DNA of 64,000 nucleotides from Paracoccus sp. MA. Lineage in GTDB: Bacteria; Pseudomonadota; Alphaproteobacteria; Rhodobacterales; Rhodobacteraceae. Numbering within the stretch: the stretch's first letter is position 1; each line of letters opens with the position of its first letter. The notes below the pieces were generated by a model. That model was not told the DNA's origin. It was given only the letters and a program-made list of their open reading frames with translations, and made no database searches. This document shows, piece by piece, positions 16,267 through 58,936 of the stretch. A program made the translations under genes and the position numbers. Location: contig NZ_CP087598.1 of assembly GCF_020990385.1 (NCBI RefSeq), positions 1,989,001 to 2,053,000 of the forward strand, written 5' to 3'.

Positions 16267-20415
<4,149 letters not shown>

Positions 20416-20547
20416 AGAGGGTCTAACCTTTCGTCTTTCGCTTGCGCAGACCGTCGGGGCCCGGGCTGCGCAAGGCGGCGAATGAGGGGCGGGGTCCCAT
20501 TCGTGCCGCGCGTCCCACCGCGCGGCTCCCGAACCCCGAACATGCCC

Positions 20548-20621
20548 TGAAGGAAGGTCTGTTCTGGAAACCGTCCTTCAAGACAGGTTCGGCAGGGACC
20601 GGGGAAACCCCGGACCCTGCC
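20548..20621 (-). promoter_or_regulatory. Two hairpins in the rplL/rpoB gap
   Basis: The first hairpin reached by transcription has arms at 20591-20604 and 20608-20621 (seven pairs, one T-T mismatch, six pairs, three-base loop) and no U run. The second pairs TGAAGGA (20548-20554) with TCCTTCA (20574-20580). In Escherichia coli the same gap holds a partial attenuator and an RNase III site that lower rpoBC relative to rplJL; a similar role is my inference here. I see no convincing promoter in the gap. Confidence 0.55.
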
Positions 20622-45004: not shown

Positions 45005-46108
45005 TCACTTGCGGAACAGGTCCCGCAGCCCCGAGGGCTGGCTGCGCCAGAACTGCGGCGGCGCCGTGACGCTTGCACCCAGCTTCGCCGCCGCGTGCCA
45101 GGGCCAGCGCGGATCGTAAAGCACCGTCCGGGCCAGCGCGATCATGTCGGCATCGCCGGTGGCGACGATGGCTTCGGCCTGCTCGGGCTCGGTGATCAGC
45201 CCCACGGCGATGACCGGGATGCCCACGGCCTGCCTGACCGCCCGGGCCAGCGGCACCTGATAGCCGGGACCGACCGGGATCTGCTGGCGCGGATCCAGCC
45301 CGCCGCTGCTGACATGGATGGCGGCGCAGCCCCGCGCCTCCAGCGCCTGCGAAAAGGCAATGCTGCCCTCGATGTCCCAGCCGCCCTCGACCCAGTCCGT
45401 GCCCGAGATGCGCATGGTGACCGGATAGCCTTGCGGCACCGCGTCCCGCACCGCCTCGAAAACCTCCAGCGGAAAGCGCATGCGGTTTTCCGGGCTGCCG
45501 CCATAGTCGTCCTCGCGCCGGTTGGACAGCGGCGACAGGAACTGGTGCAGCAGATAGCCATGCGCGGCATGGATCTGGATCGCGTCGATCCCCAGCCGCA
45601 CCGAGCGGCGCGCCGCCTCGGCAAAGGCGTCGCGCACCCGCGCCAGCCCGGCGCGGTCCAGCGCCAGGGGCGGGTTCTCGCCCTCGGCGAAGGGCAGGGC
45701 CGAGGCCGAAACGGTCTGCCAGCCATGCGCCGCATCGGGGGCGATCTGCGCCCCGCCCTCCCAGGGCTTCGCGGTCGAGGCCTTGCGCCCGGCATGGGCC
45801 AGCTGGATGGCGATGGGCATGTCCGACCAGGCCCGCACGCCCTTCAGCACCCGGTCCATGGCCGCCTCGGTCGCATCGTCCCACAACCCGACATCGGCAT
45901 AGGAGATGCGGCCCTCGGGCAGGACAGCGGTGGCCTCGATGGTCAGGATCGCCGCGCCGGAATGCGACAGCGCGCCCAGATGGATCAGGTGCCAGTCGGT
46001 CATCCGCCCGTCCTCGGCCGAATACATGCACATCGGCGCGATGACAATCCGGTTCGCAAGGGTCTGGCCGCCAATGGCGATCGGCTCGAAAAGCTTCGGT
46101 TTGGGCAT
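45005..46108 (-). CDS. NADH:flavin oxidoreductase, Old Yellow Enzyme (YqjM/XenA type)
   Basis: The 367-residue FMN enzyme reduces activated C=C bonds with NAD(P)H. Features of the YqjM class are Cys27 and Tyr29 in PMCMYS, AHAGRK near residue 105, the substrate-binding pair His180 and His183 in IQIHAAHGYL, and LSNRREDDYGGS. It ends GLRDLFRK. The physiological substrate is unknown; xenobiotic enones and nitro compounds are typical in vitro. It is the last gene before the histidine locus and converges on the patatin gene. Confidence 0.92.
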   Translation of the reverse strand: MPKPKLFEPIAIGGQTLANRIVIAPMCMYSAEDGRMTDWHLIHLGALSHSGAAILTIEATAVLPEGRISYADVGLWDDATEAAMDRVLKGVRAWSDMPIAIQLAHAGRKASTAKPWEGGAQIAPDAAHGWQTVSASALPFAEGENPPLALDRAGLARVRDAFAEAARRSVRLGIDAIQIHAAHGYLLHQFLSPLSNRREDDYGGSPENRMRFPLEVFEAVRDAVPQGYPVTMRISGTDWVEGGWDIEGSIAFSQALEARGCAAIHVSSGGLDPRQQIPVGPGYQVPLARAVRQAVGIPVIAVGLITEPEQAEAIVATGDADMIALARTVLYDPRWPWHAAAKLGASVTAPPQFWRSQPSGLRDLFRK

Positions 46109-46178
46109 GAATGGGGTCCTTGCTGTTGCCCGTTCCAGATAAGCCTCGGCCGCCCCGCCGCAACCCCCCGCCGGCACG

Positions 46179-46240
46179 CTTCTTTCTTGCCCAAATATCC
46201 CGGGGGAGTCGCGGAACGCGACGGGGGCAGAGCCCCCGCC
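46179..46240 (-). repeat. Intergenic repeat element, copy B
   Basis: On the minus strand it reads as a GGGGGCTCTGCCCCC hairpin, a short CGTCGCGTTCCGCGAC hairpin, then CCCCCGGGATATTTGGGC and AAGAAAGAAG. It is the fullest member of the family seen at 4623, 29818 and 27887. It lies between the last gene of the histidine operon and the Old Yellow Enzyme gene and could act as terminator for the former. Confidence 0.7.
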
Positions 46241-46245
46241 CGCCA

Positions 46246-47016
46246 TCAGAAGCTGTTGCGCTCGTGATAGGTGCGCAGGAAATTCTGGATGCGCTGGTCC
46301 TTCGGCGCGTGGAAGATGGCCTGCGGGCTGTCCACCGCCACCAGCTCGCCCTTTTCCATGAAGGCGACCTGGTCGGCGACATGGGCGGCGAAGCCCATCT
46401 CATGCGTGACCACCACCATGGTCATCCCCTCATTCGCCAGCGCCTTCATCACGTTCAGCACCTCGCCCACCAGCTCGGGATCGAGCGCCGAGGTCGGCTC
46501 GTCGAACAGCATCAGCCGCGGCTCCATGGCGATGGCGCGGGCGATGGCGACGCGCTGCTGCTGGCCGCCCGACAGGCGCGAGGGGTGGTTGCCCATCTTG
46601 TCGGCCAGCCCGACCTTGGCCAGCGCCTCGGCGGCACGCTTTTCCGCCTCGGCTTTCGGCAGGCCGCGGACGCGGACCAGCCCCTCGGCCACGTTCTCCT
46701 TGGCGGTCATGTGCGGCCACAGGTTGAACTGCTGGAACACCATGCCGATGGCGCGGCGCATCTCGCGCAGCTTGCGCCCCGCCATCTTGCGGCCCGGCGC
46801 CTCGTAGCCGATCAGCTGGCCGTCGATGCGGATCTCGCCTGAGTCGTATTCCTCGAGGAAGTTGATGCAGCGCAGCAGCGTGGACTTGCCCGAGCCCGAG
46901 GGCCCGATCAGGCAGGTCACCTTGCCCGGCGGGATGGACAGGTCCACGTCCTTCAGCGCGTGGAAGGGACCGTAATACTTGTTGACCTTGCGGATCTCGA
47001 CGGCGGATGCCTGCAT
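46246..47016 (-). CDS. Amino acid ABC transporter ATPase
   Basis: The 256-residue ATPase has Walker [11 protein letters not shown]-loop, signature LSGGQQQR, Walker [13 protein letters not shown] and H-loop THEMGFA, all typical of polar amino acid importers (HisP/GlnQ group). It is the last gene of the ten-gene hut operon, four bases after the second permease. By context it probably imports histidine, urocanate or a related imidazole acid. Confidence 0.93.
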
Positions 47017-47020
47017 CGGC

Positions 47021-47683
47021 TCAGGTCCTTTCGATCAGGTGTTTGGTGATGCGCGTCTCAAGCCGGCGGCCGATGCGCGAGATGGTCTCGACCAGCGCCC
47101 AGAAGAACAGCGCCAGCACCAGGTTCGCCTCCAGATAGCGGAAGGTCTCGGTGGACATGCGGCTGACCTGATACATCAGCTCGGGCACGGTGATGATCGA
47201 CAGGATCACCGTCTCCTTGGTCAGGATGATCGAGAAGTTGACCAGCGCCGGCAGCGACGAGACCAGGCCCAGCGGCAGCAGGATGCGGCGCACGATGGCC
47301 GGCTCGGCCATGCCGATGGCGCGGGCGGCCTCGATCTGGCCATGCGGCACGGCGCGGAAGCCCGAGCGGAAGATCTCGGCGAAATAGGGGCTGCCGTAGA
47401 GGGTCAGGCCCAGCAGGCCCGCCGGCAGCGCGTCCAGCCGCAGCCCGATCAGCGGGCCGCCGTAATACAGCACGAAAAGCTGCACCAGGAAGGGCGTGCC
47501 GCGGATCACCTCGATATAGGCCTGGATGATCCAGCCCAGCCAGCGCGGCCCGTAGCGTTGCATGAGCGCGATCACCAGCCCCAGCGCCATGCCGAAGATG
47601 GTGCCGAGAACCCAGCACAGCACGGTGACGCCAAAGCCCCTCAGCAGGGCGGGGCCGTATTGTTCAAGGATGCTCCATTCCAT
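47021..47683 (-). CDS. Amino acid ABC transporter permease (second)
   Basis: The 220-residue inner-membrane protein has five membrane helices and the EAA coupling loop [20 protein letters not shown], as in HisM/HisQ-type permeases. Its ATG shares a base with the TGA of the preceding permease (TGATG). The two permeases should form a heterodimer in the transporter served by the ATPase and the binding protein of this operon. Confidence 0.92.
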
Positions 47684-48330
47684 CAGACGGCCGTCCTGTG
47701 TTCAAGGTAACGTCCCAGCGCCGCAAGGCAGAGGTTGATCGCCAGATAGATGCAGGCGGCGGCGATATAGACCTCGAGCGGGCGGAAGGTGGTCGCGGCC
47801 TGGGCCTGGCTGGCGCGGGTCAGTTCCAGGATGCCGACGACCGAGACCAGCGAGCTGGCCTTGACCAGCAGGATCAGCTCGTTGACCAGCGCCGGCAGCG
47901 ACATGGTGAAGGCCTGGGGCAGGATCACCCGCATCCAGACATCGCGCGGGGTCATGCCGATGGCGACGGCGGCCTCGGTCTGGCCCCTGGGCAGCGCCGC
48001 GATGGCGCCGCGCCAGATCTCCGAGATATAGGCGCTGGCGCAGATGCCGACGGTGACGACCGCCGCGAAGATGGCGGGCACGTCGATGCCGATCACCGGC
48101 AGCGTGTAATAGAACACCAGCAGCTGGACCAGCAGCGGCACGCCGCGCAGGAAGCTGACCCAGATGGCGGCGAAGTTGCGCAGGGCCGCATAGGGCGACA
48201 GCCGCGCCGCACAGATCAGCGTGCCGATCACCAGCCCCAGCGCGATGCCAAGGCCCGAGATCAGCAGCGTATAGCGCGCCGCCCAGAACAGCGGTTCGAA
48301 ACTTTGAAGAAAGACCGGGATGGAGAACAT
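47683..48330 (-). CDS. Amino acid ABC transporter permease (first)
   Basis: The 215-residue permease has five membrane helices and the EAA loop EAAVAIGMTPRDVWMRVILP. I start at MFSIPVFLQ, preceded by GAGG; thirteen further in-frame codons upstream (RPFPKGQG) are polar and lie over the intergenic hairpin. It follows the binding-protein gene after 57 bases and is coupled to the next permease. Confidence 0.92.
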   Translation of the reverse strand: MFSIPVFLQSFEPLFWAARYTLLISGLGIALGLVIGTLICAARLSPYAALRNFAAIWVSFLRGVPLLVQLLVFYYTLPVIGIDVPAIFAAVVTVGICASAYISEIWRGAIAALPRGQTEAAVAIGMTPRDVWMRVILPQAFTMSLPALVNELILLVKASSLVSVVGILELTRASQAQAATTFRPLEVYIAAACIYLAINLCLAALGRYLEHRTAV

Positions 48331-48358
48331 GCGCGCCTCGCCTTGGCCCTTGGGGAAC

Positions 48359-48378
48359 GGGCGGGGCATCCCCCGCCC
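48359..48378 (-). promoter_or_regulatory. Hairpin between binding-protein and permease genes
   Basis: A perfect eight-base GC stem (GGGCGGGG at 48359-48366, CCCCGCCC at 48371-48378, loop CATC) lies ten bases after the stop of the binding-protein gene. There is no T run. In other transport operons a hairpin at this place protects the upstream mRNA, giving much more binding protein than permease; the same role is likely here. Confidence 0.6.
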
Positions 48379-48387
48379 GCCAGCGGC

Positions 48388-49206
48388 TTAGTTGGTCGGG
48401 ACTTCGCGGGGCAGTTCGGTATAGCTGCCCAGCCATTTCTCCTGGATCGCCTTGACCCGGCCGTCATCGGTCATCTTCAGCAGCGCGTCGTTGATGGCCT
48501 GGGCAAAGCTTTCGCTGGCTTCCTCCTTGCGCAGCACCCAGGCGAAATAGGTCGGCTGGCCGAACTGTGCCGGCTCGAACAGCGCGAAGGTCTCGGGGCG
48601 GTTCTTCACCAGATAGGTCAGGTTCGGAAGCGAGCCCGCCACCGCGTCCAGACGGCCGGCGGCCAGGTCGGCATAGGCTTCGTCCGTGGTGCCGTATTCC
48701 TTGACGTTCACGCCGCCCAGGCTTTCGCCATAGGCTTGCAGCTGGCGGAACTGCGCGGTGCCCTGCTGGACGCCGACGGTCTTGCCCTTAATGTCCTCGG
48801 GCTTGGTCAGCTCGGTGTTCGAGGCGGCCTTGACCAGCGAGACGGTGGCATCGGCGATCGGCAGGGTGAAGGTGTAACGCTCCAGCCGCTCGGGCGTGAT
48901 GGTGACGGGCGCGATGACGATGTCGAATTTCTTGACTTCGAGGCCCGGCAGCTCGGCGGTCCAGGGGATGTCCTGATAGACCGGCTCGACGCCGATTTCC
49001 TTGGAAACCTCGTCGAACAGGTCCTTGGTCATGCCCTCATAGGTGCCGTTGTTCAGCATGTCGAAGGGGGCATAGTGCATGTCGGTGGCGGTGACGATCT
49101 TGCCGGCGGCCTTGATGTCGGCAAGCTGGTCGGCCTGCGCAGCAGTGCCGAGCGCAAGCGCGGTCAGGCCGAACAGGGCAGCCTTGATGCTGGTGTGGAA
49201 GGTCAT
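48388..49206 (-). CDS. Periplasmic amino acid-binding protein of the hut operon
   Basis: The 272-residue protein has a signal peptide (about 1-25, cleavage after AAQA), then a bacterial family 3 solute-binding fold with IVTATDMHYAPFDMLNNGTY near the start of the mature part and the DAVAGSLPNLTYLV hinge region. It would capture the substrate in the periplasm for the two permeases. Ligand unknown; the operon points to histidine, urocanate or another imidazole carboxylate. AGGAG stands before the ATG. The 64-base gap before it holds a small GGGGC/GCCCC hairpin. Confidence 0.9.
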   Translation of the reverse strand: MTFHTSIKAALFGLTALALGTAAQADQLADIKAAGKIVTATDMHYAPFDMLNNGTYEGMTKDLFDEVSKEIGVEPVYQDIPWTAELPGLEVKKFDIVIAPVTITPERLERYTFTLPIADATVSLVKAASNTELTKPEDIKGKTVGVQQGTAQFRQLQAYGESLGGVNVKEYGTTDEAYADLAAGRLDAVAGSLPNLTYLVKNRPETFALFEPAQFGQPTYFAWVLRKEEASESFAQAINDALLKMTDDGRVKAIQEKWLGSYTELPREVPTN

Positions 49207-49270: not shown

Positions 49271-50947
<1,677 letters not shown>

Positions 50948-50959
50948 CTCGGTCTCCGT

Positions 50960-52114
50960 TCAGGCCAGCATGTTGCCGGAAATGATGATGCGTTGGATTT
51001 CGGACGAACCTTCATAGATCCGCATGATGCGCAGATCGCGGTTGATCCTCTCGATGGGAAAGTCGCGGGTATAGCCATAGCCGCCATGCAGCTGCAGCGC
51101 GGTGTCGGCGATCCTGCCCGCCGCCTCGCTGGCGGCCAGTTTCGCCATGCTCGACGCCAGCGAGAACCGCCCGCCGTGGTCATGGGCCTGCTGGCGCTGG
51201 CGCGCGGCATCCTGCGACAAGAGCAGCGCCTGACGAAAAGCGACGCCCATGTCGGCGATCATCCAGCGGATGCCCTGCCGGTCGGTCAGCCGCTCGCCGC
51301 CGATGACGCGGTCCTTGGCATAGGCGATGGCGGCGTCCATCGCCGCTTTCGCCAGCCCCAGGCATTGCGCCGCGACCTCGATGCGGCCGTTGTCCAGCAC
51401 CTGCATGGCGGTGCGAAAGCCCCTACCCTCTTCGCCCAGCAGGGCATCCTCGGGCAGCTGGCAGTCGAGGTTCAGGGTGAACACATGCCCGCCCTTCAGC
51501 CCCATGGTCTTTTCCGGTGCGCCCGGATCCAGCCCCGGCGTGCCTTTCGGCAGGATGAAGGCCGAGATGCCGCGATGGCCCTTCTCGGGATCGGTCACCG
51601 CATAGACGACGATGAAATCCGCCACGCCGCCGTTCGAGATGAAGCATTTCGTGCCCTTCAGGTGCCAGCCGGTTTCCGTGCGGCGGGCGCGGGTCTTCAT
51701 GTCGGCGGGGTCCGAGCCGGCGGTCGGCTCGGTCAGGGCGAATGCCCCCAGCGCCCCGCCGGCGGCGGCTTTCGGCAGCCATTCCTGCTTTTGCGCCTCC
51801 GTTCCGCCGATCAGGATCGAATCGGTCGCCAGGTAATGCGCCGTCAGCGCCGAGGCCGTGGACCCGCAGGCCCCCGCCACGATGGCGACGGCGCGCAGCA
51901 GCGCCGGGGCCGAGATGCCCGAGCCGCCATAGGCTTCGGGCAGGTTCGCGCCCATCATCCCGGCCTCGCCCAGCACGGCAAGCTGGTCATGGACGAAACC
52001 CGAAGTCTCATCCGTCTCCGCCGCTCTGGGCGCGATCCGCTCGGCGCAGATGCGCTCTAGCACGTCGCAGAACAGCCTTTCCTCTTCGGCCAGCATGGGC
52101 CAGTCGTCGCTCAT
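50960..52114 (-). CDS. Acyl-CoA dehydrogenase within the hut operon
   Basis: The 384-residue FAD enzyme has GAFALTEPTAGSDPADMKT, the FAD/substrate motif, and the catalytic base Glu368 in RIYEGSSEIQR, so it should oxidise an acyl-CoA to the 2,3-enoyl-CoA. No step of textbook histidine breakdown needs it. Its ATG overlaps the TGA of the CoA transferase gene and hutU follows after 12 bases, so it is fixed inside the operon. I infer that its substrate is imidazolepropionyl-CoA, giving urocanyl-CoA; a general short-chain substrate is the main alternative. No electron-transfer flavoprotein gene is nearby. Confidence 0.93.
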   Translation of the reverse strand: MSDDWPMLAEEERLFCDVLERICAERIAPRAAETDETSGFVHDQLAVLGEAGMMGANLPEAYGGSGISAPALLRAVAIVAGACGSTASALTAHYLATDSILIGGTEAQKQEWLPKAAAGGALGAFALTEPTAGSDPADMKTRARRTETGWHLKGTKCFISNGGVADFIVVYAVTDPEKGHRGISAFILPKGTPGLDPGAPEKTMGLKGGHVFTLNLDCQLPEDALLGEEGRGFRTAMQVLDNGRIEVAAQCLGLAKAAMDAAIAYAKDRVIGGERLTDRQGIRWMIADMGVAFRQALLLSQDAARQRQQAHDHGGRFSLASSMAKLAASEAAGRIADTALQLHGGYGYTRDFPIERINRDLRIMRIYEGSSEIQRIIISGNMLA

Positions 52115-53259
52115 GCGGTCTCCTCCAATCCGAATGTGCGCAGGATGGCGGCGCGGTCGCCGCCAAGGCGCGGGGCCGAGGTCTCGGCCACGGGTTTCTC
52201 TGCATCGAAGCGCACCGGCTGGCCGACGGTCGGCGCCAGTCCCAGCACCGGATGCGGCAGGCGGCTGACCAGCCCGCGCGTCTGCGCATGCTCGTTGCCC
52301 GCAGCCTGGGCGATGTCCCAGATCGGCGCGGCGGGCAGGCCGACGCCGGCCAGAGCCGCGACGGCTTCCTCGGTCGTGCGCTCGCGCGACCAGCTTTCGA
52401 TCAGGCGCTTGAGCTCGGGCTCATGCGCGGTGCGGCTTTCGTCGCTGGCAAAGCGCGGATCGTCCGCGGCATCCGGCGCGCCGATCAGCGCGGCCAGCGC
52501 GGCGAATTGCTTGCCGTTCAGCACCGCGATCACCACCTGCCCGTCTTGCGTCGCAAAACAGCCGAAGGGGGTGGACAGGGGATGGCGGTTGCCCACCCGC
52601 TGCGGCAGCGCCCCGGCATAGAAATGCAGCGCGTGGCTGGTGGTCAGCATCGAAAACAGCGCGTCATACATGGCGACATCCAGCGTGGCGCCCTGCCCCG
52701 TGGCGTTGCGATTGACCAGCGCCGCCATGATCGCCCAGCTTCCGAACAGGCCGGCGATCAGGTCGGCGACGCTTTCGCCGGTCTTCAGCGGCGCGCCGCC
52801 TTCCTCGCCGGTGCCGGCCATCAGCCCGGACATGGCCTGCACCACCAGGTCATAGGCCGGCAGGTCGCGGAACGGCCCGTCCTGGCCGAAGCCCGAGATC
52901 GAGCAATAGACCAGCCGCGGATTCGCCGCCCGCAGCGCCTCGGCCCCAAGGCCCAGCCGGGCCGCGACGCCGGGGCGGAAGTTCTCCACCACCACGTCGA
53001 CCTGCGCCGCGATTTCGCGCGCCAGCGCCAGGTCGGCGGGGTCCTTCAGGTCTAGGACAAGGCTCTGCTTGCCGCGGTTGTTCAGCGTGAAGAGCGCGCT
53101 TTCGCCGTCCTTGAACGGGCCGATATGGCGATAGTCGTCGCCGGCGGGAGGCTCCAGCTTGATGATTTCGGCACCCAGATCGGCCAGAAGCGCGGTGCAA
53201 TAGGGCCCCGCCAGCACGCGGGACAGGTCCAGCACCTTGATGCCTTGCAGCGGCTTCAT
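52111..53259 (-). CDS. Class III (CaiB/BaiF) CoA transferase within the hut operon
   Basis: The 382-residue protein is a family III CoA transferase: VLDLSRVLAGPYCTALLADL at the start, NRGKQSLVLDLK, and the acyl-forming aspartate Asp166 in ESVADLIAGL, equivalent to Asp169 of formyl-CoA transferase. It overlaps hutG upstream and the dehydrogenase downstream by four bases each (ATGA). Class III enzymes are known to shuttle CoA between aryl-acrylates and aryl-propionates or lactates in anaerobes; here I infer CoA exchange between urocanyl-CoA and imidazolepropionate. Confidence 0.93.
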   Translation of the reverse strand: MKPLQGIKVLDLSRVLAGPYCTALLADLGAEIIKLEPPAGDDYRHIGPFKDGESALFTLNNRGKQSLVLDLKDPADLALAREIAAQVDVVVENFRPGVAARLGLGAEALRAANPRLVYCSISGFGQDGPFRDLPAYDLVVQAMSGLMAGTGEEGGAPLKTGESVADLIAGLFGSWAIMAALVNRNATGQGATLDVAMYDALFSMLTTSHALHFYAGALPQRVGNRHPLSTPFGCFATQDGQVVIAVLNGKQFAALAALIGAPDAADDPRFASDESRTAHEPELKRLIESWSRERTTEEAVAALAGVGLPAAPIWDIAQAAGNEHAQTRGLVSRLPHPVLGLAPTVGQPVRFDAEKPVAETSAPRLGGDRAAILRTFGLEETA

Positions 53260-54047
53260 GCGCGCAACTCCGGCGCCAGCGCGGCCAGGCGCTCAAGGAT
53301 CGCCTTCAGCGTCACCCGCAGCGCCTCGGCCTTCTGCTCGTCATAGGCGAAGGGCGGGGTTTCGGTCGCCAGATGCGTCGCCTGCGCCAGTTCCATCTGG
53401 ATGGCATGCACACCCTGCCCCGGCTGGCCGTAATGCCGCGTCGTCCAGCCGCCCTTGAAGCGGCCGTTCAGCACATGGCTGCGGCCGCTTGCGGCGCAAA
53501 GCTCGAACGTCGCGGCCTCGATGCGCTTGTCGCAAGCGGCGCCGCTGTTGGTGCCGATGTTGAAATCCGGCAGCACGCCCTGAAACAGGAAGGGGATCAC
53601 CGAGCGGATCGAGTGGCAGTCATAAAGGATCGCCACGCCGTGACGCGCCCGCACCCGCTCGATCTCGGCGGCCAGCGCCGCGTGATAGGGGGCGTGGAAC
53701 TGCGCTTTGCGGGTGGCGATCTCCTCGGCGGTCGGCTCCACCTCCCAGATCGGTTCGCCGTCGAAATCGGTCAGCGGCACAAGGCCGGTGGTGTTCTGCC
53801 CGGGATAGAGGCTCGCATCGTCCGGCCCGCGATTGGCGTCGATGACATAGCGGTGAAAGGTCGCCCGCACCGTTGTCGCGCCGGGCAGAAGCCCGTCATA
53901 GAGCCGATGGATATGCCAGTCGGCATCGGCCAGCACCTGCCCGCGCGGGTTCAGCCGGGCGCGCATCCCATCGGGCAGCCAGGTCCCGGTATGCGGCAGG
54001 CCGAGGATGACCGGGCTGTCGCCCTGCGTGACTTCGACGGGGGTCAC
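53256..54047 (-). CDS. hutG: N-formylglutamate deformylase
   Basis: HutG splits N-formylglutamate into glutamate and formate, the last step of the HutF route. The 263-residue product shows [27 protein letters not shown] and [12 protein letters not shown], which supply zinc and substrate ligands. I start it at GTG, whose last two bases lie in the hutH stop (GTGA); upstream codons are unconserved, and 263 residues is normal. This is the true deformylase type, not the arginase-like formiminoglutamase, which agrees with the presence of hutF. Confidence 0.95.
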
Positions 54048-55585
54048 GGCCGCACCTCGTCCAGCAGGTGGCCGGGAACGGCGCCGACCAGCACGCCCTC
54101 GCGCACCAGCCGGGCGGATTCGGCCAGGTCGGGGGCAAGATAGCGGTCCTGCTCCAGCGCCGGCACCGTCTGGCGCAGCGCGGCGATCACCGCCTGCAAG
54201 GGCGCCGAGGTCGCCAGCGGCGCGCGGAACTCGACGCCCGCGCTGGCGCAAAGCGCCTCGATGCCCAGGATCTGCGCGAGGTTCGCATTCATGCGCTTCA
54301 GCCGCCGGGCGCCATGCGCGGCCATGCTGACGTGATCCTCCTGATTCGCCGAGGTCGGCGTCGAGTCGGTGCTGCACGGCGTCGCCAGGTGCTTGTTCTC
54401 GCTCATCAGCGCCGCCGAGGTCACTTCCGCGATCATCAGGCCCGAGTTCAGCCCCGGATCGGGGGTCAGGAAGGGCGGCAGGTCATGCGACAGCGCCGGA
54501 TCGACCATCAGCGCAATGCGGCGCTGGGAAATGGCGCCGATCTCGGCAATGGCCAGCGCGATCTGGTCGGCGGCGAAGGCCACCGGCTCGGCATGGAAGT
54601 TGCCGCCCGAGACGATGCGGTCGGCGCCGACCAGCACCAGCGGGTTGTCGGTGGCGGCGTTCGATTCGATCTCCAGCGTGCGGGCGGCCTGCCAGAGCAG
54701 GTCGATGCAGGCGCCCGTCACCTGCGGCTGGCAGCGGATGCAATAGGGATCCTGCACGCGCGTATCGCCCTCGCGGTGGCTCTCGCGGATCTCGGACCCA
54801 TCCATCAGTGCGCGGATCGTCCGCGCCGCGACGATCTGGCCGCGATGGCCGCGCAGCGTGTGGATCTCGTCCAGGAAGGGCGCGGTCGAGCCCATGATCG
54901 CATCGGTCGAAAGCGAGGACGTGACCAGCGCCGCGCGGGCCGAGGCGAAAGCCTCGAACAGCCCCGCCAGCGCGAAGGCGGTCGAGACCTGGGTGCCGTT
55001 GATCAGCGCCAGCCCCTCTTTCGCGGCCAGCACCACGGGCGCGAGGCCGGCGGCGGCCAACGCCTCGGCGGCGGGCATCTCGCGGCCGTCATAGGTTGCG
55101 CGGCCCTCGCCCAGCATGGCGGCGGCCATATGCGCCAGCGGCGCCAGATCGCCCGAGGCGCCGACCGAACCCTGCGACGGGATCACCGGCAGCACGCCGC
55201 GCGCCAGCATGTCCTCGATCAGCTGGATCACCTGGGGGCGCACGCCCGAGGCGCCGCGGCCCAGCGACAGAAGCTTCAGCACCATGATCAGGCGCACGGT
55301 TTCCGGCTCGACCGGCTCGCCCACGCCGCAGCAATGCGACAGGATCAGGTTGCGTTGCAGGGTGGCGGTGTCCTCGGCCCTGATCTTGATCGAGGCGAGC
55401 TTGCCGAAGCCGGTATTCACGCCATAGACCGGCGCGTCACCATTGGCGGCGGCGGCGATGCGCGCGGCGGATTCGGCAATGCCGGGACGAGCCGAGTCGG
55501 CCAGCCGCACGGCTAGGCCCTGACGCCAGACCTGTTCAAGCTGCGCGAGCGTGGTTTCACCGGGGATAAGGATCAGTTCAGACAA
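54044..55585 (-). CDS. hutH: Histidine ammonia-lyase
   Basis: HutH removes ammonia from histidine to give urocanate, by means of the MIO group formed from Ala143-Ser144-Gly145 within [12 protein letters not shown] start the gene at TTG ([13 protein letters not shown]) because GGAGG stands five bases before it and the result, 513 residues, is the family length; an ATG eight codons upstream lacks such a site. The start lies inside the last codons of hutI, so the two overlap by eight bases. Confidence 0.95.
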
Positions 55586-56780
55586 GTTCGCCTCCGACGA
55601 TGCGGGCATGAAGGGGGTTGAAGCCGATGCGATAGGTCAGTTCGGCCGGGTGCCGGATGTCCCAGACCGCCAGGTCGGCGCGCATGCCGGGCGCCAGCCG
55701 GCCGCGATCCGCAAGGCCCAGCGCCCGGGCGGCGTGGCGCGTGACACCCGCCAGGCATTCCGAGGGCGTCATGCGGAACAGCGTCGCGCCCATGTTCATG
55801 GTCAGCAGCAGCGAGGTCAGCGGCGAGGTGCCGGGATTGCAATCGGTGGCCAGCGCGATCGGCACGCCGGCATCGCGCAAGGCGCCCATCGGCGGGTATT
55901 GCGTCTCGCGCAGGGTATAGAAGGCGCCGGGCAGCAGCACCGCCACGGTGCCAGAAGCCGCCATGGCCTCGATACCGTCCGGTCCCAGATATTCCAGATG
56001 ATCCGCCGACAGCGCGCCGTGCTGCGCCGCCATGGCCGCGCCGCCCAGGTCGGAAAGCTGCTCGGCATGCAGCTTGACCGGCAGGCCCAGCCTTGCCGCA
56101 TGGTCGAAGATGCCGGCCATTTCCTCGCGCGTAAACGCGATGCCCTCGCAGAACCCGTCCACCGCGTCGATCAGCCCCTCGGCATGGCCGCGCTGCATGC
56201 CGGCGACCACCACCTCGCGGATATATCCCTCGCGGTCGTCCCTGTATTCCGGCGGCAAGGCATGGGCGGCCAGCCAGGTGGTGCGCACCGTCACCTTGCG
56301 GACCTGCCCGATGCGGCGGGCGACGCGCAGCATCTTCAGCTCGCTGTCGATGTCCAGCCCGTAGCCCGACTTGATCTCCAGCGTCGTCACGCCCTCGGCC
56401 AGCAGCGTATCGACACGCGGCAGGGCGGATGCCAGCAGCGCATCCTCATCCGCCTCGCGCGTGGCGCGGACGCTGGACAGGATGCCGCCGCCGGCCCGCG
56501 CGATCTCCTCGTAGGAGGCACCCTCCAGCCGCATCTCGAACTCGCGCGCGCGGTCGCCGCCGAAGACGATATGGGTGTGGCAGTCGATCAGCCCCGGCGT
56601 CACCAGCCGGCCGCCCATGTCGCGGCGCGTCGCATCGCCATAGCGCGCAGGCAGGTCCGATTCGGCGCCGACCCAAGCGATTCGCCCGGCCTCGATCACC
56701 AGCACCCCCTGCTCGATCAGGCCGTAACTACCTGATTCTTCGTCCATCGTGACAAGCTGGGCGTTATGGAGAAGCTGCAT
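55578..56780 (-). CDS. hutI: Imidazolonepropionase
   Basis: HutI opens the imidazolone ring to give N-formiminoglutamate. The 400-residue amidohydrolase shows the metal motif [12 protein letters not shown] (His68, His70), [10 protein letters not shown], the metal-ligand region [11 protein letters not shown] and [10 protein letters not shown]. It is the first gene of the minus-strand hut operon and is transcribed divergently from hutF across a 96-base gap. Confidence 0.97.
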
Positions 56781-56808: not shown

Positions 56809-56851
56809 TTGTTCTATGTCTAAACTTAATTAATCTCTATGTCTAAACTTA
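56809..56851. promoter_or_regulatory. Divergent hut control region with two exact 16-base repeats
   Basis: TCTATGTCTAAACTTA occurs at 56813-56828 and again at 56836-56851, a 23-base period or about two helical turns on one face. This AT-rich core contrasts with the GC-rich surroundings. A candidate hutF promoter is TTGTTC (56809-56814) with TAATCT (56831-56836), 16 bases apart, so the repeats would overlap it. They are good candidates for HutC binding, although the sequence is not the palindrome I know from pseudomonad HutC sites. Confidence 0.65.
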
Positions 56852-56876: not shown

Positions 56877-58238
56877 ATGACGGTTATCTGGGCGGAACGG
56901 GCCTTGTTGCCCGATGGATGGGCAGAAAATGTCCGGGTGACGGTCGAGCAAGGCCGAATCGCCGCCGTGGAAAAGGATGCGGCGCCGCAGGGCCATCGCG
57001 CCGGCCTGCTGCTGCCGGCGCTCGCGAACCTGCACAGCCACGCCTTCCAGCGCGCCATGGCCGGGCTTTCCGAGGCGAAGGGCCCCGAGCCGCGCGACAC
57101 CTTCTGGACCTGGCGGCAGATCATGTATCGCTTCCTCGACCACCTGACGCCCGAGGATGTCGAAGCCATCGCCGCGCTGGTGCAGATGGAGATGCTGGAG
57201 GCCGGCTATGCCACCAATGTCGAGTTCCACTATCTGCACCACCGTCCCGGGGCTGGGCATTACGACAATATCGCCGAGATGGGCGAACGCATCGCCGCCG
57301 CGGCCGGCCGCACCGGCATCGGCCTGACCCTGCTGCCCGTGCATTACCAGTTCGGCGGCGTGGACCGTCGGCCGCTCGCCCCCGGCCAGAACCGCTTCGG
57401 CACCACGCCCGAGGAATTCCAGCGCCTGCTGGAAGGCTGCGAGGCGGCGCTGCGCGCCCTGCCCGGCGATTCCGGCATCGGCGTCGCCCCGCATTCGCTG
57501 CGCGCCGTCTCGCCCGAGGGGCTGGCGGCCTGCGTCGCGCTGCGCCCCGGCCGGCCGCTGCACATGCACCTGGCCGAGCAGGTGCCCGAGATCGAGGAAA
57601 TCAGCGCCGCCTATGGCCGCCGCCCGGTCGAATGGCTGCTGGAGAACCACGGCCCCGACCGGTGCTGGACGCTGATCCACCTGACCCACATGACCGAGGA
57701 CGAGACCCGCCGCCTGGCCGCCACCGGCGCCGTGGCGGGCCTTTGCCCGATCACCGAATCGTCGCTGGGCGACGGCATCTTCAACGGCACCATCTGGGCC
57801 GGGGAAAGCGGCCGCATCGGCTTCGGCTCGGACAGCAACATCCGCATCTCGCTGGTCGAGGAGTTGCGGACGCTGGAATACAGCCAGCGCCTGCGCGACC
57901 GCGGCCGGGCGATCCTGGCCGAGCCGGGGCGCTCGACCGGCCGGGTGATCTACGAGGCCGGGCTGGACGGCGGCGCCACGGCGGCGGGGCGCGAGACCGG
58001 GGCGATCCGGCCGGGGCTCTGGGCCGATCTGGTCGCGGTCGGGCTGGACAATCCGGTGATGTTCGGCCGCAAGGGCGACCAGATGCTCGACAGCCTGGTC
58101 TTTGCCGGCCATGACGGGCTGGTCCGCGACGTCTGGTCGGCGGGCCGCCACGTGGTGCGGGACGGCCGGCATATGGACCGCGACCGCATCATCGCCGATT
58201 ATCTGGCGACCATCGCCCGACTTCAGGACCGCATGTGA
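56877..58238 (+). CDS. hutF: Formimidoylglutamate deiminase
   Basis: HutF hydrolyses N-formimino-L-glutamate to N-formylglutamate and ammonia. The 453-residue amidohydrolase shows NLHSHAFQRAMAGLSE (metal ligands His53, His55), EFHYLHHRPG, MHLAEQ and GFGSDSNIRISLVEEL with the late metal aspartate. It is divergent from hutI and overlaps hutC by four bases (GTGA). Its presence with the deformylase-type HutG defines the five-step route to glutamate plus formate. Confidence 0.97.
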   Translation: MTVIWAERALLPDGWAENVRVTVEQGRIAAVEKDAAPQGHRAGLLLPALANLHSHAFQRAMAGLSEAKGPEPRDTFWTWRQIMYRFLDHLTPEDVEAIAALVQMEMLEAGYATNVEFHYLHHRPGAGHYDNIAEMGERIAAAAGRTGIGLTLLPVHYQFGGVDRRPLAPGQNRFGTTPEEFQRLLEGCEAALRALPGDSGIGVAPHSLRAVSPEGLAACVALRPGRPLHMHLAEQVPEIEEISAAYGRRPVEWLLENHGPDRCWTLIHLTHMTEDETRRLAATGAVAGLCPITESSLGDGIFNGTIWAGESGRIGFGSDSNIRISLVEELRTLEYSQRLRDRGRAILAEPGRSTGRVIYEAGLDGGATAAGRETGAIRPGLWADLVAVGLDNPVMFGRKGDQMLDSLVFAGHDGLVRDVWSAGRHVVRDGRHMDRDRIIADYLATIARLQDRM

Positions 58239-58936
58239 CCGAAAGAAGCTCCTCCAAGGCCCAGGCCATCACCAGCGAGGTGCGCCGCCGCATCGTGGAC
58301 CGCGAATGGCGGCAGGGCGACCGCATCCCGGACGAGGCCGAGCTGGCCGTCGAGTTCGGCGTCGCCCGCGCCACGGTGAACAAGGCCCTGCAGATGCTGG
58401 CCGAGGAGGGGCTCTTGGACCGCAAGCGCCGGGCCGGCACCCATGTGACGGTGAACCCGGCGCGCAAGGCCACGCTGACCATCCCCATCGTGCGCGAGCA
58501 GATCGAGCAGGCGGGGATGGAATACAGCCACCGGGTCATCGCGCAGAAGGAAAGCCCGATCCCGGCCGAGATCGCGCAGCGCATGGAACTGCCCGAGGGG
58601 CGGATGCTGATCCATCTGCGCACCGTGCATTACGGCGACGGCAAGCCCTTCCAGGTCGAGGACCGCTGGATCAATCCCGGCGCCGCGCCCGGCGTCGCCG
58701 GCATCGACTTCCACCGCGTCAACGCCAATGAATGGCTGGTGCGCAACGCGCCCTGGCTGCGCGCCGACATGGCCTTTTCGGCCGAGAACGCCAATGCCCG
58801 CGACGCCCGGCTGCTGGAGACCCGGCAGGGCAGCGCGCTGCTGATCCTGCAGCGCACCACCTTCAACGACCTGGGCGCGATCACCACCGTCCGGGTGGCC
58901 TTTCATCCCGGCTATGCCATGATCGCAACGCACTAG
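58235..58936 (+). CDS. hutC: Histidine utilisation repressor HutC (GntR/UTRA)
   Basis: The 233-residue regulator has an N-terminal winged helix (ITSEVRRRIVDREWRQGDRI, with VEFGVARATVNKALQ) and a C-terminal UTRA ligand domain. HutC proteins repress hut genes and are released by urocanate. It starts with GTG overlapping the hutF stop, so it is made from the same transcript it would control, giving negative feedback. The likely operators are the repeats upstream of hutF. Confidence 0.95.
   Translation: MTERSSSKAQAITSEVRRRIVDREWRQGDRIPDEAELAVEFGVARATVNKALQMLAEEGLLDRKRRAGTHVTVNPARKATLTIPIVREQIEQAGMEYSHRVIAQKESPIPAEIAQRMELPEGRMLIHLRTVHYGDGKPFQVEDRWINPGAAPGVAGIDFHRVNANEWLVRNAPWLRADMAFSAENANARDARLLETRQGSALLILQRTTFNDLGAITTVRVAFHPGYAMIATH

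Follow-up and report, generated by a model that had tools for sequence, protein, structure and literature searches.

In the 64,000-nucleotide stretch of the Paracoccus sp. MA genome analysed here (the window; contig NZ_CP087598.1, positions 1,989,001 to 2,053,000), a class III coenzyme A (CoA) transferase gene and an acyl-CoA dehydrogenase (ACAD) gene form a pair within a histidine utilization (hut) operon. On the minus strand, the genes run hutI, hutH, hutG, transferase, ACAD, hutU and a four-gene amino-acid-type ATP-binding cassette (ABC) transporter, with hutF and hutC on the opposite strand, and the HutU, HutH, HutI, HutG, HutF and HutC proteins all score above their NCBIfam cut-offs. The tight packing described in a previous sequence-only reading of this DNA is exact to the base: the hutG/transferase and transferase/ACAD junctions are four-base ATGA overlaps, and the gap between the ACAD stop, which ends at 50960, and the hutU start at 50947 is 12 bases. 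The hutH and hutG genes likewise overlap by four bases. An Asp in class III CoA-transferases and a Glu in ACADs are the catalytic residues, and both residues named in that reading, Asp166 in the transferase and Glu368 in the ACAD, are present; the former is found in all 66 class III transferases aligned and the latter is invariant among 35 aligned ACADs.

The transferase matches PF02515 over residues 4–368 (cut-off 23.3) and is conserved across a 21-row alignment, while the ACAD carries its N-terminal, middle and C-terminal domains in order, each above cut-off. The AlphaFold2 model of the ACAD (predicted local distance difference test score, pLDDT, 93.2) has a short-chain ACAD fold, with a Foldseek template modelling (TM) score of 0.93 to PDB entry 1ws9. 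The transferase model was poor (pLDDT 69.0) and was left unused, and a comparison of transferase positions with 12 control sequences was not used as evidence. The closest organism-named ACAD is that of Paracoccus aminovorans, with 97% identity; at E ≤ 1e-90, 2303 ACAD homologues, not all of the same family, were found among 8000 scored candidates.

Table 1 Features of the hut locus in the window, in window coordinates.
Feature	Position	Strand	Details
Class III CoA-transferase	52111..53259	-	382 residues; PF02515 424 bits; proposed urocanyl-CoA:imidazolepropionate CoA-transferase
Codon of catalytic Asp166 of the CoA-transferase	52762..52764	-	
Acyl-CoA dehydrogenase (ACAD)	50960..52114	-	384 residues; PF02771/PF02770/PF00441; proposed imidazolepropionyl-CoA dehydrogenase
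ACAD residues 88–98 (SALTAHYLATD), family signature, helix 84–103	51821..51853	-	
Codon of catalytic Glu368 of the ACAD	51011..51013	-	
hutU, urocanate hydratase	49271..50947	-	TIGR01228 955 bits, cut-off 375
hutG, N-formylglutamate deformylase, GTG start	53256..54047	-	TIGR02017 373 bits, cut-off 278.75
hutH, histidine ammonia-lyase	54044..55609	-	TIGR01225 702 bits, cut-off 539.15; open reading frame coordinates, actual start may be further in
hutI, imidazolonepropionase	55578..56780	-	TIGR01224 460 bits, cut-off 298.15
hutF, formimidoylglutamate deiminase	56877..58238	+	TIGR02022 540.5 bits, cut-off 413.05
hutC, GntR-family repressor of histidine utilization	58235..58936	+	TIGR02018 253.7 bits, cut-off 220
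Putative HutC operator 1, TATGTCTAAACTTA, hutF/hutI intergenic	56815..56828	no strand	
Putative HutC operator 2, TATGTCTAAACTTA, 23 bases from operator 1	56838..56851	no strand	
Substrate-binding protein, amino-acid-type ABC transporter	48388..49206	-	Under the cut-offs of named models; accompanies the pair in Sinorhizobium
ABC permease 1	47683..48369	-	
ABC permease 2	47021..47683	-	
ABC ATPase	46246..47016	-	

The ACAD was searched for in 101 genomes (that of the window and its relatives), in 385 genomes of the class and 398 of the phylum, and also in 200 genomes of the family of genome G615, 146 genomes of the Virgibacillus family, a plasmid collection and named genomes. Between 4 and 13 candidates were scored per genome in the class, phylum and family searches, and the named relatives found represent a lower bound (at least that many). 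The pair is rare and patchy: the window genome aside, it occurs in 4 of 384 class genomes (E ≤ 1e-100) and in 8 of 397 phylum genomes (E ≤ 1e-90). We examined 49 proteobacterial loci, that of the window included, and six loci from the Virgibacillus family; the 49 are partly non-independent, since some of the 13 plasmid records may come from the same species as other genomes and three are Paracoccus yeei strains. The transferase adjoins the ACAD in 55 of 55 loci. A hut enzyme is encoded in the same stretch in 30 of the 49 proteobacterial and in all six Virgibacillus-family loci, and a further three loci have hutC only; the count of 30 is a lower bound because two stretches among the 16 without hut genes (L069 and L199) stop close to the pair. 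As a control, generic ACAD loci (ACADs 39–47% identical to the scan query) were inspected, and hut enzymes were seen at 0 of 76. The control set comprised 77 loci and 1.22 million bases, 76 of the loci having a median length of 18.5 kb (45 of them at least 15 kb); the 77th is itself a Virgibacillus operon with the order transferase-ACAD-hutU-hutG-hutI-hutP-hutH. Within the Virgibacillus family, 4-kb stretches contain the transferase and hutU at six of six ACADs that are at least 75% identical to the Virgibacillus ACAD and at none of the next 14; wider stretches were taken for five of these six loci.

The same association is observed at the level of whole genomes. Among 61 genomes of the genus (the window's included), the pair is present in 21 and hutU in 37; hutU occurs in each of the 21 pair genomes, and the pair is absent from all 24 genomes without hutU (Fisher p about 1e-6, ignoring relatedness). 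Over all pair-bearing whole genomes tested, hutU is present in 34 of 34, namely the 21 of the genus, nine further ones and the four behind L069–L072. Chance occurrence in a single genome is ruled out, as the pair is linked to hut genes in Alphaproteobacteria, in Comamonas, in other non-alpha Proteobacteria and in the Virgibacillus family, and on this comparative basis we regard the hut linkage of the pair as established. At 16 of the 49 proteobacterial loci, no hut gene is near the pair.

Further genomes of the genus, as well as other genera, show the order hutG-transferase-ACAD-hutU again. In the window type, in Roseovarius and in G791, the pair is placed between hutG and hutU; it lies between hutH and hutU, with no hutG in the locus, in G040, G044 and Pseudorhodobacter, and past the hut transporter, on the other strand and with its own LysR gene, in G047, G052 and G055. 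It is located near hutU with a LysR and a hutC-like gene in G653, directly after hutU in G496, and in a cluster with a LysR gene, an ABC transporter, a hutC-like gene and hutH in Comamonas sp., G615, G941 and G805. The overlap of stretches L071 and L176 places the hutU of Comamonas sp. on the contig of the pair, about 10 kb away. Such varied arrangements suggest that selection, not inertia, maintains the hut link. At one locus (L047, genome G031), the matches to hutC, hutF, the ACAD and the transporter binding protein are all split in two, probably owing to sequencing errors; G031 is rated 79% complete and 6% contaminated. Beyond the hut transporter, the window encodes an Old-yellow-enzyme-type flavin mononucleotide (FMN) oxidoreductase (45005–46246; PF00724), which is retained in some hut loci of the genus (L050, L052, L053) and has a 47% identical relative near the pair in G496 (L150).

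The pair is also found on plasmid-borne islands. Paracoccus aminophilus JCM 7686 has the operon on its plasmid pAMI6. In Sinorhizobium mexicanum and Sinorhizobium chiapasense, the order is hutC (71–73% identical to that of the window), transferase, ACAD (86–88%) and four transporter genes (87–90%); the 25-kb stretch around each island contains no hut enzyme, and hutU is situated elsewhere on the same plasmids. In Mesorhizobium sp. AR02, the transporter and hutC are divergent from the pair. These islands suggest that the travelling unit consists of the regulator, the transporter and the pair. On three P. yeei plasmids (L161, L164 and L165), a pair of the LysR type lies beside nucleoside deaminase and nucleobase transporter genes, with no hut gene in the stretch; the plasmid record of L161 is without hutU.

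HutC responds to urocanate, by which it is released. Two copies of TATGTCTAAACTTA, 23 bases apart, are present in the hutF/hutI region of the window. When 48 loci (1,025,046 bases) were scanned with at most two mismatches to the palindrome TATGTCTAGACATA, 29 operator-like sites were detected in 19 loci: 23 in hutF/hutI regions and six upstream of the transferase, the latter all in the two Sinorhizobium islands and the Mesorhizobium island. Control sequence of 1,219,577 bases yielded two such sites. As the 14-base consensus was derived from the window and its relatives, the hutF/hutI sites are partly found by construction; the transferase-promoter sites are more independent because the consensus was read from hut promoters. 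Some hut loci are without an operator-like site at the two-mismatch threshold. An operator of the Pseudomonas type, TTGTATATACAA, had zero sites in the window. The pair can be predicted to belong to the hut regulon in that its genes overlap their neighbours in the window, and putative operators lie at hutF/hutI and, in Sinorhizobium and Mesorhizobium, at the transferase.

The ACADs of the family share a distinctive sequence signature. Comparison of 48 family ACADs, including members without nearby hut genes, with 138 others placed S88, T91, Y94, D98 and V239 among the most differing positions, and of the top 30 exactly these five are common to all six Virgibacillus-family ACADs. The first four are carried by a single helix (residues 84–103 of the model) with spacings of 3, 3 and 4 residues; a helix of this type lines the acyl pocket in ACADs, and its polar, acidic face in the model would be better suited to an imidazole ring than to an alkyl chain. 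With H93 added, the six-position signature is exact in 33 of the 48 family ACADs and in six of six Virgibacillus-family ACADs. Each family ACAD has at least five of the six positions; the maximum among the 138 others is three (one sequence), 12 have two and 125 have none or one. The signature segment of the linked ACADs is one residue shorter than in 10 of the 12 other ACADs shown. In the ACAD tree, the Virgibacillus-family clade falls outside the proteobacterial clade (branch support 0.969, lower nearby), and the Virgibacillus-family transferases are likewise outside the proteobacterial clade in their own tree. The common signature within a shortened segment argues for common descent of the proteobacterial and Virgibacillus-family ACADs. 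Either both enzyme classes were recruited twice or the tree was misled, and each of these readings would favour a common substrate.

Some loci carry further genes that bear on the possible role of the pair. A Virgibacillus-family genome, G1095, has the gene order transferase-ACAD-hutU-etfB-etfA, followed by the gene of a 705-residue iron-sulfur (FeS) protein with CCG domains, which places electron-transfer genes alongside the pair; FeS proteins of this type link electron-transfer flavoprotein (ETF) to menaquinone. Two ETF alpha genes and a single full-length ETF:quinone oxidoreductase domain are encoded in the window genome, all outside the window. In G1136, the genes that follow in the cluster encode a second urocanate hydratase, a regulator of the AraC type, an aminotransferase of the HisC type (above the TIGR01141 cut-off), a D-2-hydroxyacid dehydrogenase and a sodium symporter. 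The neighbours of the pair in Gemmobacter fulvus and Mesorhizobium sp. AR02 include a HisC-type aminotransferase, a flavin adenine dinucleotide (FAD)-linked oxidase, and a Rieske oxygenase with its reductase; in the latter strain the oxidase is GlcD-like (below cut-off) and the oxygenase VanA-type. An oxidase or dehydrogenase combined with an aminotransferase is what the conversion of imidazolelactate to histidine would need.

At L159 (4824–10524) and L162 (11215–17149), a LysR gene, a Rieske oxygenase (VanA-type in L162), a reductase, a HisC-type aminotransferase and an FAD-linked oxidase form a cluster next to the pair; such clusters possibly serve imidazolelactate and N-methyl-imidazole compounds. 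A 28-kb P. yeei plasmid carries histidinol-phosphate aminotransferase, D-lactate dehydrogenase, vanillate and hut modules, according to an excerpt of PMC4447125. Two Virgibacillus-family hut clusters contain a second, divergent urocanate hydratase gene (L204, 10734–12395; L205, 1870–3510), whose product is 48% identical to Virgibacillus HutU and falls under the thiourocanate hydratase cut-offs; an AraC-type regulator gene comes after it in both clusters.

The simplest fit to all these contexts, those with ETF and imidazolelactate-type genes included, is the chemistry put forward in the sequence-only reading, namely oxidation of imidazolepropionate to urocanate via CoA esters, with the transferase recycling CoA. 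We estimate at roughly 70% the probability that the pair constitutes such a CoA loop and feeds the histidine pathway. The class III CoA-transferase would shift CoA from urocanyl-CoA onto imidazolepropionate, freeing urocanate, and the ACAD would convert imidazolepropionyl-CoA to urocanyl-CoA, with the electrons passing to ETF and then to the quinone pool. The net result would be conversion of imidazolepropionate to urocanate with no ATP spent per turn, and HutU, HutI, HutF and HutG would then take urocanate to glutamate. Since its product, urocanate, releases HutC, the pathway would induce itself. The first CoA ester would have to come from another donor, perhaps succinyl-CoA or acetyl-CoA, or, in some relatives, through a downstream acyl-CoA ligase. 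A gene for such a ligase is found past hutH, with one gene between, in the Virgibacillus-family loci L072 and L201–L203, and its product might make the first CoA ester and prime the loop. A nitronate-monooxygenase-type gene also follows hutH in these four loci; in L072 the two genes span 17898–20620. We infer the substrate, the direction, the route of the electrons and the origin of the first CoA ester. Coote and Hassall reportedly described imidazolylpropionate degradation by Pseudomonas testosteroni in 1973, as the title of their paper (cited in PMC3953581) has it, which would fit the proposed loop. We know of no genes assigned to that activity, and no published gene assignment for bacterial imidazolepropionate degradation was found in the open-licence literature.

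The proposed loop has parallels among known enzyme systems. In the carnitine metabolism of Escherichia coli, CaiA and CaiB resemble the pair in that CoA is exchanged between substrates at no ATP cost and the second enzyme acts on CoA esters (excerpt of PMC3680233); they differ from it in their betaine substrates, in the reductive role of CaiA and in the presence of the ligase CaiC and the hydratase CaiD, whereas the pair is proposed to be oxidative. Against the corresponding models, the window proteins score 116 bits (L-carnitine CoA-transferase, cut-off 413) and 153 bits (crotonobetainyl-CoA dehydrogenase, cut-off 540). CaiB is a class III CoA-transferase and CaiA belongs to the ACAD family, in agreement with the NCBIfam model names. 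In CarC/CarA of Acetobacterium woodii, an ACAD-type enzyme acts on an aryl-propionyl/aryl-acrylyl-CoA couple and CoA is recycled, as proposed for the pair, but the system is anaerobic, electron-bifurcating, reductive and outside a hut context; the PDB match 6fah (227 bits) is the caffeyl-CoA reductase CarC. The cinnamate/phenylpropionate branch of Clostridium sporogenes (FldA, AcdA) likewise combines a class III CoA-transferase with an ACAD on an aryl-acrylate/aryl-propionate couple, but it belongs to a reductive Stickland fermentation with a dehydratase. The urocanate reductase UrdA is a fumarate-reductase-type flavoprotein that uses no CoA. It shares with the proposed loop the same two compounds, urocanate and imidazolepropionate, and differs from it in being reductive (excerpt of PMC13320830).

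The pair could also operate in the reverse direction, reducing urocanyl-CoA to imidazolepropionyl-CoA in a CaiA/CaiB-like manner, with imidazolepropionate as an electron sink. The excerpt of PMC3680233 presents CaiA as a crotonobetainyl-CoA reductase, and that of PMC13320830 has UrdA forming imidazolepropionate from urocanate in gut bacteria. The ETF alpha of G1095 has an acryloyl-CoA reductase subunit as its best match, below cut-off (225 of 600 bits), and its ETF beta scores about equally against ETF and an acryloyl-CoA reductase subunit. However, the window pair accompanies a complete degradative hut operon and its transporter, ETF and ETF:quinone oxidoreductase domains are encoded in the window genome, and units with a hydroxyacid oxidase and an aminotransferase appear catabolic. 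In G1095, moreover, the ETF genes precede that of the large CCG-domain FeS protein, of the type linking ETF to menaquinone. Taken together, we judge the reductive direction quite improbable. The pair might instead handle another imidazole or histidine-derived acid, such as N-methyl-imidazolepropionate, with the product entering the hut pathway as urocanate or methyl-urocanate. N-demethylation would fit the Rieske oxygenase and reductase that neighbour the pair in Gemmobacter and Mesorhizobium, as well as the Rieske genes nearby in G102, but of 47 loci searched for a VanA-type oxygenase 3 have one, the window has none, and we consider a substrate of this kind unlikely.

The adjacency of hutG to the transferase raises a different option, in which the substrate of the transferase would be a product from further along the hut pathway (N-formylglutamate, formate or glutamate/glutarate), making it a formyl-CoA or glutarate CoA-transferase, and the ACAD would be a glutaryl-CoA-type dehydrogenase. 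The model that gives the transferase its top score is succinate-glutarate CoA-transferase (307 bits), and glutaryl-CoA dehydrogenase is among the matches of the ACAD (212 bits), but both values are far under the cut-offs of 750 and 470. The loci of G040, G044 and Pseudorhodobacter and the Sinorhizobium and Mesorhizobium islands show no hutG, Virgibacillus HutG is a different enzyme, formimidoylglutamase, and the recurring neighbours are hutU, hutH and hutC. The occurrence of the pair at loci lacking hutG disfavours formyl-CoA/glutarate chemistry, in which we see very little probability. Finally, the two enzymes could be ordinary members of short-chain fatty-acid metabolism that were caught up in the operon and have nothing to do with histidine: butyryl-CoA dehydrogenase and 3-sulfinopropanoyl-CoA desulfinase are among the source names, and the ACAD fold is of the short-chain type. 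Such a coincidence, which we hold to be highly improbable, is opposed by the repeated linkage in separate lineages and in varied arrangements, by the co-occurrence with hutU, by the operator placement and by the family-specific signature.

Several points weigh against the oxidative imidazolepropionate loop itself, for which the support is comparative. Thirteen of the 16 proteobacterial loci without a nearby hut gene have a LysR-type gene beside the transferase, and hutU is missing from 3 of 6 plasmid records (Mesorhizobium, Leisingera and P. yeei), which cover plasmids and not chromosomes. No operator was detected in 16 other transferase upstream regions, even at three mismatches, 15 of them beside a LysR-type gene. 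No relatives of the ETF, acyl-CoA ligase, Rieske, aminotransferase and hydroxyacid-oxidase genes of the islands are found in the 64-kb window. The signature positions were selected from the same data in which they are displayed. The best characterised-family score of the ACAD, to acryloyl-CoA reductase, is 363 bits against a cut-off of 640, and cyclohexane-1-carbonyl-CoA dehydrogenase (258/650) and sulfinopropanoyl-CoA desulfinase (237.5/600) are equally under cut-off; the transferase also misses those for oxalate (299/522), mesaconate (287/700) and formyl-CoA (227/504). As these and the glutarate, glutaryl-CoA and carnitine-type scores given above all lie below their NCBIfam equivalog cut-offs, the family models assign no substrate to either protein. 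P. testosteroni is the present Comamonas testosteroni, and the pair-bearing Comamonas sp. genome is a metagenome-assembled genome. The view of the pair as a hut module is supported by the recurrent hut linkage and by the hut operator in Sinorhizobium and Mesorhizobium; in the light of the loci without hut genes, the pair is a peripheral module attached to the hut pathway and not a fixed hut enzyme.

On a broader proposal we are evenly divided. The pair may be the core of a mobile island for the consumption of bacterial histidine products: imidazolepropionate, imidazolelactate (by the hydroxyacid oxidase or dehydrogenase and the HisC-type aminotransferase) and perhaps N-methylated imidazoles (by the VanA-type oxygenase). 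Such an island would have been assembled from the same enzyme classes by Proteobacteria and the Virgibacillus family, possibly independently, and would supply the genes for the imidazolylpropionate degradation reported in 1973. Neither the enzyme families nor the CoA-loop principle is new in itself, but their use in histidine catabolism appears to be. Imidazolepropionate is a microbial product of histidine that is raised in serum in prediabetes and diabetes (excerpt of PMC7676231). If the proposed function is correct, the pair would provide genes for the bacterial removal of imidazolepropionate and may explain the 1973 activity, and it would enable a metagenome search for degraders and an enzyme route to remove or measure imidazolepropionate.

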